Shown in pieces: positions 47,825-53,863 of a stretch of DNA of 64,000 nucleotides. Under the pieces are notes generated by a model, which had not been told where the DNA came from, did not search any database, and saw nothing but the letters and a program-made list of their open reading frames with translations. Location: NCBI GenBank assembly GCA_964034945.1, contig OZ035960.1, forward strand, positions 85,374,148-85,438,147, given 5' to 3'. How positions within the stretch are numbered: the first letter of the stretch is position 1; every line of letters begins with the position of its first letter. This stretch comes from Chrysopilus asiliformis. Lineage: Eukaryota; Arthropoda; Insecta; Diptera; Rhagionidae. A program made the position numbers and the translations under genes.

Positions 47825-49011
47825 TATTACTTTGTATTTTTGCACAAAAACATTTATTTGTTGGAAAACACGTAAAAAGATTTATCTGTTTGCGGGCCAG
47901 GATATTCAATTATATGTTGGACCACTAATTTTGTATGTTTAGCTAGGAAAGTCTGTAAAAAATTTAATTATTTTCTATAAGAAACTAGAATGTGGACTCG
48001 TCGTTGCCGGCTCAGAGTATTTCCTATTCATTTTAGGAAAGCCAAAAAAAATTGGTGAATCGTCCTCTTAACACCTTTTGAGAAAATGCTATTATTTTTA
48101 ATAAATCGGAAAATTTTTGGGCTCATTTTTCAATGGCAGAGTAGGTTCTGAAATTATTAATGTGTGTAGATTTTTGTATATATATATAAATTCATACAAA
48201 ATACTCTACTTTTGCAATTTCGGAATTTTCGGCACTTTTGGATACAACTCTGCATTTTTTATATTAAAAGGATCGGAAAATATGTCTTCTGGAGTGTGTT
48301 TTAAACAGTTGCGTGAAAGTTCACCTCTACACGGTCGAAAATTTTGGTACAAATTTTCAACTTCTCTCAACTTTTTCAAGTTTAAACCGAAACTTTCAAC
48401 AAAATAGTTAGAAATCCTGTACCTCAAGCGGATAAAAAGTTCATGTACAACCAATTTTCAACAAAAAAGTTGAGATAATGTACAAAATGGTATAGATTAT
48501 TTATGTACAACAAAACGTTTAAACTGAAATAGTATATTTTATCATCATTTGAGGTTTAAAAATTTGTTTTCGTCCTGATTGTAAAAAAACTGACTCTTTT
48601 ATTGGTGAAATTACAAACTCGTTAGATGAATTTTTCACTTGCAAAAGTAAAATATTTTCGTTCAAGTCACAACCCAATCATTAAGATTAAAAATTGAGCC
48701 TCTCTTTGTATGGAATTTCAACTCTAAGTTTGATTTTTCAACTTTAAAGTTTAAAAGAAATTTTCAAAAATCAAATTTTTTTCTAAACTAATTAGTAGAA
48801 AAAATCAACCAACTGTAGTTTAAAATATTTACCCAATATTGTGATTTTTTTTACCCGAAGTTAAAAATTTACAAAAAACAGTTGAAAAATTCAACTATTA
48901 TAGATGAATTTCAACGAGAACTCGCAGTTCTGTTTCTCTTTTGTAGAACAATTCTCAGTTCGTTGTTGCGCGTCGTTGTGGAAACAGCTCAGTTCACGTC
49001 GGTTTTTTGTG

Positions 49012-52000
49012 ATGACAAGTATAGTGGGAAAGTATTTGCGGGTGTTGTTTGTTACAGAAAACGTAACAAAATACGTTTTAACCCATTTAGACCCAAACGG
49101 TCGAAAACGAACTTTCAGTTTATTATCCCAAATGGTCGAAAACGAACTTTGTTTGTTTTTCTACGTCCCCCGATTAGCTGTGCCTAGAACACGTTCATGC
49201 TTGGTAATATTTCCGAGAAGATATTGAAAAATAGAAATGCATTTGTTTTGACGCGACAAATTTAGTTTTTGTTTTAATTCAGAGAGGAAGAAGTGTTACG
49301 ATCTTTAGAGGTGACAATGAGCACAACTAATTATTACCGGTACGTAGAATCTTTTACAAATAACATTGAAATATTATTACAAGTTGTTGTTAAGCTATGA
49401 GTGATGGTTATCAAAGGTTCTGTTTCTAAATTATTAAATTAATTAAGACACAGGCACCTATTAAACTACTTCAGTTCGTTTTCGACCGTTTGGGATAAAA
49501 GGTATCCTTTTTTTACAGGAGAAGTTTATCCGTAGCACAAATTCTTGAAGAATTGGAGAACATAGAAATCTCAAATGTTCCGGATTGTGTATTTATCGAA
49601 CCTCCTGATGTTGGAGAAGGGGAAACAGAAGAGGATTCAGGTGACGACAATGAAGCAGACCCAAACTGTTTAAATAGGAATCAGCTGACTGCTATATGTG
49701 AGGTAGTGTTCGAAGACGAAACTATACAGGATGATGAAGATGTTGGAGAAGACAGTGATGATAATAGGCCACTGAGTGACTTTAGACAGACGTTGGAAAG
49801 ACCGCAATGGGAATGTGGTGATATTGCCGACATTGAAAGTGTAAATGCGCCATGGGAAGGAGTTCTTATCCCACCCTGTTCCTTATCGGTGGACTCAGAG
49901 CCAATCGACTTCTTCAAATGTTTCATCACCGAAGAAATTATAACTGCAATTGTCAATTATACTTCACTATACGCACTACAGAAGAATGTTGATATTTCTA
50001 TCAAAAATGATGAAATGTATGCCTTCATCGGAATCCTATTTTTAACTGGCTATAATATATGTCCCCGTAGACGAATGTATTGGGAAAATAGACCAGACTC
50101 GCAAAATAATTTAGTAATAGAGACGTTGAGAAGAAACCGCCTCGATGATAGTTTTCATTACTTACACGTAACAATCACTTGGACAAGTCTGACAAAAATT
50201 CGAAAGTAAGACCCCTTGTCACATTATTAAACAAGCAGTTTATAAAGTATGCACCTATTGAGAGCCGATTGGCTATAGATGAATCAATGATTAAATATTT
50301 TGGGAAACATTCTTGTAAACAATTCATAAAAGGAAAACCAATAAGATTCGAATACAAGGCATGGTCAATGGCATTCTCTGCAGTTTACTTACAAATTAAA
50401 ACGTCTCGACTGCTTTTTTATTCTTTTTATTTTTATATATCAATAATGAGTTGTATTTGTTTTACTTTGTTACAATAGTTTGTTATTAAATATGAAAAAA
50501 ATGAATTGAAATTGAAAATTTTTACTGTTTACAAAAGTATACTTATTATCCCAAACGGTCGTTTTCGAACACCCCCCTAATTTCATCCCTATTGACCCGT
50601 TTTCGCAAAACGAATTTTTTTCTCGTTTCTTGTCATGCTGTAACTAACATATGAGGTTTATAACAAAATATTCGAAAAAAAAAGTTCCGGGAAGATAAGG
50701 GGTCTAAAGTTTACCGAGTTAAGGATCTAAATGGGTTAATACAACAGTTTTCTGAAGCAAATTTGAACTTTGACGACGTTTTGGAATCAGGTAAGGAAAT
50801 ATTATTCAAGTGAAATTCCTAAAAGTCGTGTTGGCGCGGTTAGTGTACGTTTACCTATTTTATTTATTTATTTTTCTATCTCAGTTCAGAGAACGCATTC
50901 CTGTCAGAGTTTTTTGATTTATTTTGTTGGTATTAAAGTGATTTTGTTAAAATTTGTAATTAATAATAATTATTCGGTAAATTGTTTCCGAATGGCACCC
51001 TCTTTCATTAAATTACCGCTTAATTACCGCTTAATTGTTACTATCTCACGGCCACGATGAAACAAGAATTTTAGTCATGGCCGAATTATTTTAGTGTCGA
51101 TTTTTTTCGGAGTTTAAGATATATTTTTCATTGCAGTGAAATTATATTCTACGGATCGAGACTTTTGGAAATTTGAAGATCAGGACGGAGTTGTAATCCC
51201 GGACGAATTGATTGTCCCTATCATTTCCCAATATATTTATTCGTCGTCGTTTTTTATTAAATATTTCACATTCAACACGACCTTGAGGCGCTCAAACGCG
51301 GAAATCGGTCCAGTTCTTGCAATTTCAAAAGAGGTAATCATTGATATAGACGTCATTATGCCAGAATTCACTAAACTACATTTTATTCTCTTTATGTGAG
51401 GACAATATTTTGCATTAAATTAACTTCAGTGAATTTTGACATGACGACTGTCATATTTTAAGCGAGTTGTAATTTTTAAAAACAGAATTATTTTTGTTGT
51501 AATTTTCAAATTCAGGATAAAAAACGAAATTAATTTTGAACATATTTAGGTTGTCAGAAAATATTTAGAAGAAGATGAGGAAGGCGCACTTGTTTTGAAG
51601 CAATACAACAGTTCTAATGCGTTAACTGACAAATCCAGAAGACTTTTGGTCAGATTGCTGGTTCAATTTATGAACAAAAAATTTGGCGATTATCCAGGAA
51701 AGCAAGAAAAGCTTAAAATCGCACAAATTACAATCGAACTTTTTCCCTGTTTCCGCTCTAGGAGCAAATATTTTGGAGCTGTAAGTATCTTATTACTCAT
51801 TTATTTTCCTTCGAAATCTTATAGTTTTTTAGGAACTATTTTTCAATCCGGAGAACAACACAGGATACTTCGTAAACCAGCTTAAATTCAAAAACGCCAA
51901 AAAAAGAACATTCTCTGGTGGAACCAAAAAGTCTCGCGAGGAAGAAGAAGAAGTAGCAGTTCAAGAAGTTCCAAAATTAAGCAAAGAGCAATTAACTTTT

Positions 52001-52862
52001 TTCAAAAATGTTACTTTGCCCAATGCAAAATCCGAACTAATAGAACATCTAAAAGCCACTGCGAAAGCAAGAAAAGAGTTTTTGAAAAACCCGTGCGACA
52101 TAAAATCTACATTTCCGTTTTACTTTTATGATCCAGAATTGGTAAAATAAATATTACTCCTCAAGTATCAGTTAATTGAAAAAATATATTTTTTTTAAAG
52201 ATTCTCATAGACTTCAACATCCAGCACCCGAATGTAAATTGCAATTTCAGCCTAGAGTGGGCAATTTTGCAGCCACATGTTTTTAGTGTGGTAACCTCAA
52301 AAGGATCTAACATAGATTCAACAATAGGTAATTCTTCGGTTGAAATTCTACTTACCTTTTGATAATTTTAATTTTTGTTACAGATTGGCCTGAAAATCTA
52401 AGGCATTTTTTTGGTCTGCTGAAATTGTTGCCGTCCCCACCTGGTACCAAGCAGAGATCTCGAGCAAATTTTGAACAGAGCGTGAATAAATTAATCAGGT
52501 TTTTTGATGAAAATATTCCAATAGAAGACTACTCTACCGACATCTACCCCATAATACTAGCCAACGGGGCGCAAAAAAATAAGATTAAGCAATTTTTTAT
52601 TTCCATTGATAAGAATTTAATTCCAATTCCGAATCACTATAGCATCTCCCAAATTTTCGATATTTATTTTAAAAGCTTTCATATATTCAATATTGAATAC
52701 ACACCGGATTTAAAACTGTTTTTAAAATTTTTTGAAACATTTGTGTATAAATTTAGTAATTCTATTTCAACTCCCAGACTAATAGAAATTTGGAACAGTT
52801 TCGAAATTTTTTGCAACAAAGAAAATTTGAATTATTCTTTGGACATTTTCTCGTCACAATGA
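49012..52862 (+). CDS. Six-exon gene carried by the CACGGTCG element (487 codons)
   Basis: Exons are 49012-49081 plus 50740-50790 (one exon split by a piggyBac element), 51137-51333, 51550-51780, 51833-52141, 52201-52327 and 52384-52862. All five introns are GT..AG (346, 216, 52, 59 and 56 bp). The exons total 1464 bases, a multiple of three, with no internal stop. The start at 49012 was preferred to an in-frame ATG at 48904 because the extra 36 residues look non-coding. Landmarks include YSTDRDFWKFEDQDG in exon 2. Exon 3 has LTDKSRRLLVRLLVQFM and ITIELFPCF, exon 4 has NPENNTGYFVNQLKF and an EEEEE tract, and exon 6 has FFISIDKNLIPIP and FDIYFKSFHIFNIEY. From memory this order resembles an uncharacterised multicopy family in fish (LFP.L...GTGY; late IP..FK..FVF). 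Function unknown; no database check was possible. Confidence 0.72.
49082..50735 (+). mobile_element. piggyBac-like transposon (1654 bp) inside exon 1
   Basis: The ends CCCATTTAGA and TCTAAATGGG are inverted repeats flanked by TTAA at 49078-49081 and 50736-50739. Subterminal copies of ATCCCAAA.GGTCG.AAACG occur on both sides (about 49105 and 49125; 49475 and 50550 inverted or shifted). It encodes a truncated piggyBac-family transposase in the same direction as the interrupted gene. Confidence 0.9.
49317..50390 (+). pseudogene. piggyBac-family transposase, truncated and frameshifted
   Basis: A short first exon (49317-49339, MSTTNYYR) joins across a GT..AG intron to 49519 onward. The product reads SLSVAQILEELENIEISNVP, then acidic stretches (EEDSGDDNEAD, DDEDVGEDSDD). 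The DDE_Tnp_1_7-type core follows (FFKCFITEEIITAIVNYTSL, DEMYAFIGILFLTGY, YW). Near 50170 one base is lost and the frame shifts. The other frame continues DKNSKVRPLVTLLNKQF and LAIDESMIKYFGKHSCKQF, which contains the first catalytic Asp, to about 50383. The remaining half, with the other catalytic residues and the Cys-rich tail, is deleted. Expected length is about 550-600 residues; about 290 remain. It cannot be functional. Confidence 0.85.
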
Positions 52863-53067
52863 GTTTTCAATTTTTTTGCTTTATATGTAAAAAAAACATT
52901 CATTAACATTTGTTTTACAGTGAAACATTTAAAATATTGCTTCTACGAAATAACTGAAACAAACGAATTTGTTTTAATTCATTACGATAATTTGAAATTC
53001 AAATGTCCGTATGACGCATTAAATATTTTTGAAAAGAAATTTATAATTTCAAAGATAAAGATTTAAC
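52859..53067 (+). CDS. Short coding-like exon(s) after the main gene
   Basis: An ATG at 52859 overlaps the main gene's TGA as ATGA and opens MSFQFFCFICKKNIH. After an acceptor-like TGTTTTACAG ending at 52920, a 48-codon frame runs VKHLKYCFYEIT, then FVLIHYDNLKFKCPYDALNI, to TAA at 53065-53067. The CFIC start and the KHLKYC continuation together recall a C2H2 zinc finger split by an intron. The only in-frame join I find uses a 34-bp intron (52887-52920), which is shorter than insect introns usually are. It may be an alternative last exon, a second small gene, or a decayed one. Confidence 0.35.
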
Positions 53068-53149
53068 TTGTTTATCTCAAACATAACTTTGTTGATGTCC
53101 TTGGAAAAGGTATTTTTATTTTTTTTTATGTGTACAAAGTACAAATGTG

Positions 53150-53155
53150 AATAAA
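53150..53155 (+). terminator. Polyadenylation signal AATAAA
   Basis: AATAAA lies 288 bases after the main stop and 83 after the short downstream frame. It is followed by T-rich sequence, all inside the right arm of the TIR element. Confidence 0.5.
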
Positions 53156-53863
53156 ATATATATTTTTTTTTAAATATCAAAATACGTGTTTTTTTCTTAT
53201 TTTACTACACAAAATTTCAGGTAAATTGTATATCTGGAGGATGAAATTTTCATCCTACACTGGGCTAAAAATCAATCCATTAGGTGTACTTTTTAAACTA
53301 TTTCGGTATATCAATTAATCTGACTATTATAAATTTTCAACCTATTAGGAGTAAATTTTACTCCGAATGAGTGAAGATTTCATCTAAAGAGTTGAAATTC
53401 TTAACTTAAAGGTTGAGAGCCGGGAAAATTTTTTCGAGTTTTTCAACTTGAGGTGAAAAATTTCATCAAACAAAGTTTAAAATTCTTACTTTGAGGGCTT
53501 TTTTTATACTTGGGCGTTTAAAACGATCGTGAAATTAAACTAAAAAGATCAAAACTTCATCGAATTTGTTTAAAGTTGTACATAATATTTCAACTCAAAA
53601 GACTAAAGTTTCATCTTTTTAGATGAAACAAGCGTTATGTATTTCTAATTAAACTTAAAAGTTGGAATGTTAAACCGTATTTGGTAAGGATTTATATGCA
53701 CACCTTAAAAGTTAGAAATTTGTACTAAAATTTTCGACCGTGTAGCTACTACCTCGATGCTAAAAAAAATCGTGCCGGACTAAACAAGGTTGTTTGTCTT
53801 CCTAATTTAAAAAAAATGGGGGACGAGAAAGAAAAACAAAATAAGTGCGGAAAGCGAACCAAC

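Follow-up and report, generated by a model that had tools for sequence, protein, structure and literature searches.

The locus examined here, in a window of 64,000 nucleotides of Chrysopilus asiliformis DNA (contig OZ035960.1; G000:C1:85374148-85438147 of the 429-Mb, 42-contig assembly that was searched), raises the question of what kind of transposon carries a six-exon gene between its terminal inverted repeats, and what that gene does there. The preliminary description had left the choice between a novel transposase and a passenger, and between a new transposon group and a captured gene. The evidence leads to another answer, to which we assign a probability of about 0.8: the element belongs to the CMCT clade as a non-autonomous member with an internal deletion, and its gene is the companion of a separate transposase. 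The element would be mobilized in trans, and the companion may assist the transposase much as TNPA does in maize En/Spm. In all likelihood, the gene neither encodes a transposase nor derives from the host by capture.

The termini of the window element, CACGGTCG..CGACCGTG, are of the CACGGT..ACCGTG type and are flanked by TA on both sides, as had been proposed. The inverted repeats (48327-48363 and 53709-53745) comprise 37 nt when three flanking bases are counted and are 92% complementary, and a 19-nt end pattern was matched twice in the window, compared with a shuffle mean of 0.02, two matches being reached in 0 of 100 shuffles. A genome-wide search with an end pattern of 27 places, one of them free, and with up to 3 mismatches allowed yielded 21 matches, compared with 1 for the reversed control. 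The eight zero-mismatch ends delimited four complete elements, namely, that of the window and those at C2:43441146-43444838, C3:72964415-72966739, and C4:4941903-4944225. BLAST alignment to an independent copy ended exactly at positions 48330 and 53742. Both ends are common to independent copies and thus do not stem from two separate insertions; the inverted repeats are the real ends of a mobile element.

The C2:43441146-43444838 copy differs from that of the window by 9 substitutions, one 63-bp gap, and one 1-bp gap over 3755 bp (99.8% identity apart from the gaps), 3755 bp being the length of the window element without a nested piggyBac insertion and one TTAA. The C3 and C4 copies have an internal deletion that joins position ∼51708 to ∼52996, and they also lack ∼205 bp of intron 1. 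At five loci with near-matching ends, neither the companion gene nor a transposase gene was matched within ∼6 kb. A related family with CACGGTTGAAAATTTTAGTAC ends was observed at C1:20062061, C1:88567723, C2:77503779, and C4:68119825, preceded by TG or TA; neither gene was matched within ∼6 kb of these ends, and the family is apparently non-autonomous.

More distant relatives show that the gene travels with the ends. The companion protein gave at least 78 matches in the genome, this count covering the best candidates, many of them at 30 to 44% identity. Fifteen relative loci drawn from the 30 best matches were read besides the window, some with extra flank. CACGGT ends were found on both sides in 7 loci (8 elements) and on one side in 4, while the other 4 had no usable end. 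Relatives with CACGGT..ACCGTG ends hold the gene or parts of it, their proteins being only ∼32 to 44% identical, which places the gene within the element, as first suggested. All nine both-ended elements, the window included, have matching 2-bp flanks (7 TA, 1 CG, and 1 TG); those at C3:72.96 Mb fit a 6-bp repeat too, TA being the shortest reading there. In two cases the joined flanks, compared by eye, equal an uninterrupted neighboring repeat unit that acts as an empty site: 31 nt at C1:36.99 Mb, 7 of them to the right of the duplication, and 22 nt at C3:76.54 Mb, 6 of them on the left with the TA counted. The ends are hence those of a mobile family that duplicates 2 bp of its target. Two 2774-bp elements of the family lie in inverted orientation, 217 bp apart, at C1:45389346-45395110, with a TA duplication in one and TG in the other. 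A further companion relative, at C2:109247386-109248768, had no CACGGT end within the 8.5 kb read and could be decayed or lie outside an element.

The nature of the missing partner was revealed by a 5882-bp element at C2:105600884-105606765, with CACGGTAAGAAATAAAG ends and TA, in which the companion gene is followed directly downstream, on the same strand, by a long transposase gene. The translation of the latter contains, in this order, an acidic residue in YDDLEV, THDN, a CRNC pair, HFLTH, and RYES. Transposases of the CMCT clade are characterized by the order D, D, C(2)C, H(3-4)H, E (PMC12730594), and the translation appears to follow this signature, with single residues assigned by eye. 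The window element retains the end of such a gene. Forty-three residues encoded at 52921-53066 align without gaps to the C terminus of the C2:105.6 Mb transposase, two residues short of its end, with a score of 74 (30.9 ± 5.1 for shuffles; reached in 0 of 2,000). In the older copy at C2:76.0 Mb, which by its right arm belongs to the same subfamily, companion exon 6 is followed by decayed transposase pieces, which span more than one frame and contain HFMAH and RYESYH, and then by the same terminal exon. This arrangement, together with the terminal exon in the window, establishes that the window element descends from a two-gene ancestor and lost the body of its transposase by internal deletion.

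Similar pairs were found elsewhere. The dispersed elements at C2:41.47 Mb and C3:36.15 Mb (∼7.5 kb, 98% identical, CACTCAGAG/CACGCAGAG ends, TA on both sides in both) contain an 831-residue open frame with the CMCT residue order and companion-gene pieces just upstream. The ends CACTC..GCGTG were found in a two-gene relative. A transposase query of the genome gave 31 matches in 30 loci, and two types of companion-gene query together gave 128 loci after merging. A companion locus lay within 5 kb of 16 of the 30 transposase loci, on the same strand in 16 of 16 cases, where ∼0.11 would be expected under uniform placement; this expectation disregards the clustering of transposons, which would raise it but would not explain the strand agreement. 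The companion was upstream of the transposase in 12 pairs and downstream in 4. By the criterion of equal spacing or match scores, the 16 pairs represent approximately 11 lineages, with the C2:41.47 and C3:36.15 Mb pair the sole one checked by alignment. At C2:110249047-110253535 and C5:7936746-7941234, a CACTA-like transposase has a companion of the DUF4769 type downstream rather than upstream.

As to classification, the features of the CMCT clade are CA..TG termini, a 2- to 5-bp target-site duplication, and a DDE transposase in which C(2)C and H(3-4)H precede the last E. Here, CACGGT..ACCGTG termini were found in 9 elements and a 2-bp duplication in 9 of 9, and the transposase motifs were recognized by eye at C2:105.6 and C2:41.5 Mb, the window contributing the last exon only. 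The Transposase_21 profile (PF02992) gave no match in the genome, its controls being silent too, and the transposase itself had no match to it at an E value of ≤10. Plant-type EnSpm/CACTA elements have ends beginning with CACTA and a 3-bp duplication, and EnSpm/CACTA elements proper have sub-terminal repeats. In the present family the ends are CACGGT, or CACTC/CACGC in another two-gene relative, and the duplication is of 2 bp, mostly TA. For this reason the transposon, to judge from its sequence, is a CACTA/EnSpm-like element placed at the level of the CMCT clade only. What had been considered a possible new transposon group can thus be named as an element of this type minus most of its transposase.

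The likeness to CACTA elements lies in the residue order of the transposase and in the presence of a second gene, as in maize En/Spm. There, one element yields two proteins, both required for transposition, and TNPD interacts with TNPA and stabilizes DNA binding; both arise from one spliced transcription unit (PMC1636069). In the present elements, by contrast, the two genes look separate and stand in tandem in variable order. Closer in host range are SmTRC1 and the other animal TRC elements, CACTA relatives with 2-bp direct repeats at their ends and several products, one of them proposed to be TNPA-like; the same 2006 study could detect no relatives of that product in other elements of animals or fungi (PMC1636069). 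They share with our family the animal host and the 2-bp duplication, but TRC ends start with CCC, unlike the CACGGT of the window element. No published link of the companion family to CACTA/EnSpm was found in the titles and abstract starts among the matches listed, which did not cover Repbase, and it seems unreported that this animal protein family is paired with CACTA-like transposases.

The companion gene itself conforms to the model first proposed once the nested insertion is left out: six exons and five GT..AG introns, giving 1464 nt and 487 residues open to the stop, with an AATAAA beyond the gene at 53150. The gene model is correct, but the window copy is not intact, as it had been called, for its exon 1 is split by a piggyBac-like insertion that had gone unmentioned. 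The C2:43441146-43444838 copy lacks this insertion; its exon 1 is uninterrupted and its coding sequence is the same, but the acceptor site preceding exon 6 has been altered. With exon 1 broken in one and the acceptor altered in the other, neither of the two whole-gene copies looks fully functional in this assembly. Comparison with three older copies gave ratios of nonsynonymous to synonymous substitution (dN/dS) of 0.55 (215 codons), 0.58 (215 codons), and 0.17 (44 codons), by an approximate Nei-Gojobori count based on tblastn matches, a portion of which might extend into introns; these values point to moderate constraint.

The insertion (49082-50735, 1.65 kb) can be assigned to piggyBac by the duplicated TTAA (49078-49081 and 50736-50739), the CCC.. 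ends, the DDE_Tnp_1_7 matches, and the empty site in the C2:43.44 Mb copy. It contains inner inverted CCCAAACGGTCG repeats, and its DDE_Tnp_1_7 fragments are broken. The features of the element are collected in Table 1.

Table 1. Features of the window element (positions in the window) and the evidence for each
Feature	Position	Strand	Evidence
Whole element, 5413 bp	48330..53742	+	Terminal inverted repeats; independent copy with exactly these ends
Left target-site duplication, TA	48328..48329		Read in sequence
Right target-site duplication, TA	53743..53744		Read in sequence
Left terminal inverted repeat, CACGGTCGAAAATTTTGGTACAAATTT..	48330..48363	+	Inverted-repeat match; zero-mismatch ends elsewhere in genome
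Right terminal inverted repeat	53709..53742	-	Inverted-repeat match; zero-mismatch ends elsewhere in genome
Left non-coding arm, rich in GTTGAAA/TTTCAAC like the right arm	48364..49011		Motif count
Companion gene exon 1, first part, ATG start	49012..49077	+	Gene model; aligns with start of Condylostylus P0001
Nested piggyBac-like insertion including 5' TTAA, breaking exon 1	49078..50735	+	TTAA flanks; mirrored CCCATTTAGA ends; not in C2:43.44 Mb copy
piggyBac transposase fragment (DDE_Tnp_1_7)	49499..50207	+	PF13843, E 1.5e-18
piggyBac transposase fragment, different frame	50152..50475	+	PF13843, E 3.8e-13; match ends at position 162 of 349
Companion gene exon 1, second part	50736..50790	+	Gene model
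Companion gene exon 2	51137..51333	+	Gene model
Companion gene exon 3	51550..51780	+	Gene model
Companion gene exon 4	51833..52141	+	Gene model
Companion gene exon 5	52201..52327	+	Gene model
Companion gene exon 6, including stop	52384..52862	+	Gene model
Leftover last exon of the element's CACTA-like transposase, stop at end	52921..53066	+	43-residue alignment; same exon in C2:76.0 Mb copy
AATAAA poly(A)-like signal	53150..53155	+	Read in sequence

The companion protein belongs to a large animal family. Its sole direct database relative was LOC129609252 of the fly Condylostylus longicornis, 38% identical over 97% of joined exons 2 to 6; the N terminus of this protein aligns with the first part of exon 1, other short exon pieces being misplaced by the aligner. 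Fish carry multi-copy proteins of a similar pattern. A typed approximate consensus retrieved 816 proteins at an E value of ≤0.001, and the best 120 of the 816 were nearly all from fish where named. When the profile of the window and Condylostylus proteins was compared by hhalign with 47 fish-derived proteins drawn from these 120, the match had a probability of 100 and an E value of 6e-39 over 431 columns. A second branch of the family, found in this genome next to a different transposase, matched DUF4769 (PF15992) with an E value of 7.2e-31, and aligned with the family profile at a probability of 97 over the C-terminal 111 columns only. By homology, then, the fish multi-copy proteins annotated as "uncharacterized LOC" and DUF4769 form one protein family with the window gene. 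Unlike the DUF4769 branch, window exons 2 to 6 had no Pfam match at an E value of ≤1, nor did the Condylostylus protein at ≤10; weak matches to CIDE-N and PB1 were seen in 9 and 3 of the 47 fish proteins, respectively. A PDB search with the companion gene returned only two chance-level matches (best E value, 0.72), and the AF2 model of a fish relative was mainly helical.

Taken together, these data are consistent with the following course of events. A two-gene ancestor, like the fuller relative with CACGGT..ACCGTG ends that has the companion and a DDE transposase on one strand, underwent an internal deletion that spared the companion gene and, of the transposase, the last exon. A related transposase would then cut and paste the window element in trans via its ends. 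The piggyBac-like transposon is present in exon 1 of the window copy and not in that of the C2:43.44 Mb copy. More tentatively, the companion might help the transposase as TNPA helps TNPD, by binding the GTTGAAA-rich sub-terminal arms and joining the ends, and it could perhaps also regulate the promoter. TNPA binds sub-terminal repeats. In the present element, GTTGAAA/TTTCAAC occurs 11 times in both arms, terminal repeats included (shuffle mean, 0.92; motif picked post hoc). The commonest arm 7-mer, AAAATTT, has 13 copies, a count equalled by some 7-mer in 3 of 200 shuffles; the counts of the commonest 8-mer and 9-mer were equalled in 21 and 79 of 200, respectively. It is from the lasting pairing, the moderate constraint, and these arms that we infer a TNPA-like helper role.

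Several observations weigh against this interpretation. No companion family member was found within 5 kb of 14 of the 30 transposase loci, which means that the pairing either is not universal or escapes detection in some cases; such partnerless relatives, and the variable gene order, speak against the helper role in particular. Among the gene-bearing relatives read, the C2:105.6 Mb transposase was matched at an E value of ≤1e-3 only in the C2:105.6 and C2:76.0 Mb elements, and it had no convincing Pfam match. No transposase-bearing copy with the exact ends of the window element was found in the assembly, all four zero-mismatch elements being without a transposase. Finally, the AF2 model of the fish relative had no fold match at an E value of ≤0.001, and DNA binding by the companion is not supported by the predicted structure.

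The variable order is also what would be expected if the gene were a passenger without a role in transposition, acting, for instance, against host silencing and long carried by CACTA-like elements. That the window element kept this gene and lost its transposase is in line with such a possibility, and fungal elements of the CMCT clade, among others, carry TET/JBP passenger genes (PMC12730594). A passenger, however, would be expected to come and go, whereas the pairing recurs in what appear to be ∼11 lineages within this genome, and many fish possess related proteins; we therefore consider a passenger unlikely. Still more doubtful is that the gene encodes a transposase founding a new superfamily, with the DDE gene next to it in relatives being incidental. 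Gene-bearing elements devoid of a transposase have moved recently, as the near identity of the two longest copies indicates, no element found with these exact ends carries a transposase, and the gene had no match in Pfam and only chance-level ones in PDB. Against this stand the same-strand transposase at 16 of 30 loci, the CMCT signature in the two that were read, the last exon kept in the window, and the mainly helical model. Of what was first proposed, membership of the gene in the element therefore stands, but it is probably not the transposase, since relatives carry it beside a separate DDE transposase. As for a host gene captured once by an element with inverted repeats, the introns and the single direct database relative would suit it, but with diverged copies inside such elements, the pairing with transposases, and a family so old and widespread that recent capture is unlikely, it can hardly be upheld.

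Under the companion interpretation, a large and still unnamed family of multi-copy animal proteins acquires a genomic home, at least in this genome, together with a testable role. The chances seem about even that the family, which includes hundreds of "uncharacterized LOC" proteins, mostly from fish, as well as the DUF4769 proteins of insects, represents a second gene conserved in the CACTA-like transposons of animals and encodes a TNPA-like helper that a RAG1-related transposase requires; many "genes" annotated in animal genomes would then be transposon parts. The present results suggest that a conserved pair of proteins, like that of maize En/Spm, can be maintained in the CACTA-like elements of animals, which are related to the RAG1/Transib lineage. 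They also caution that genes of this kind annotated in fish and insects may be cargo of transposons and not host gene families.

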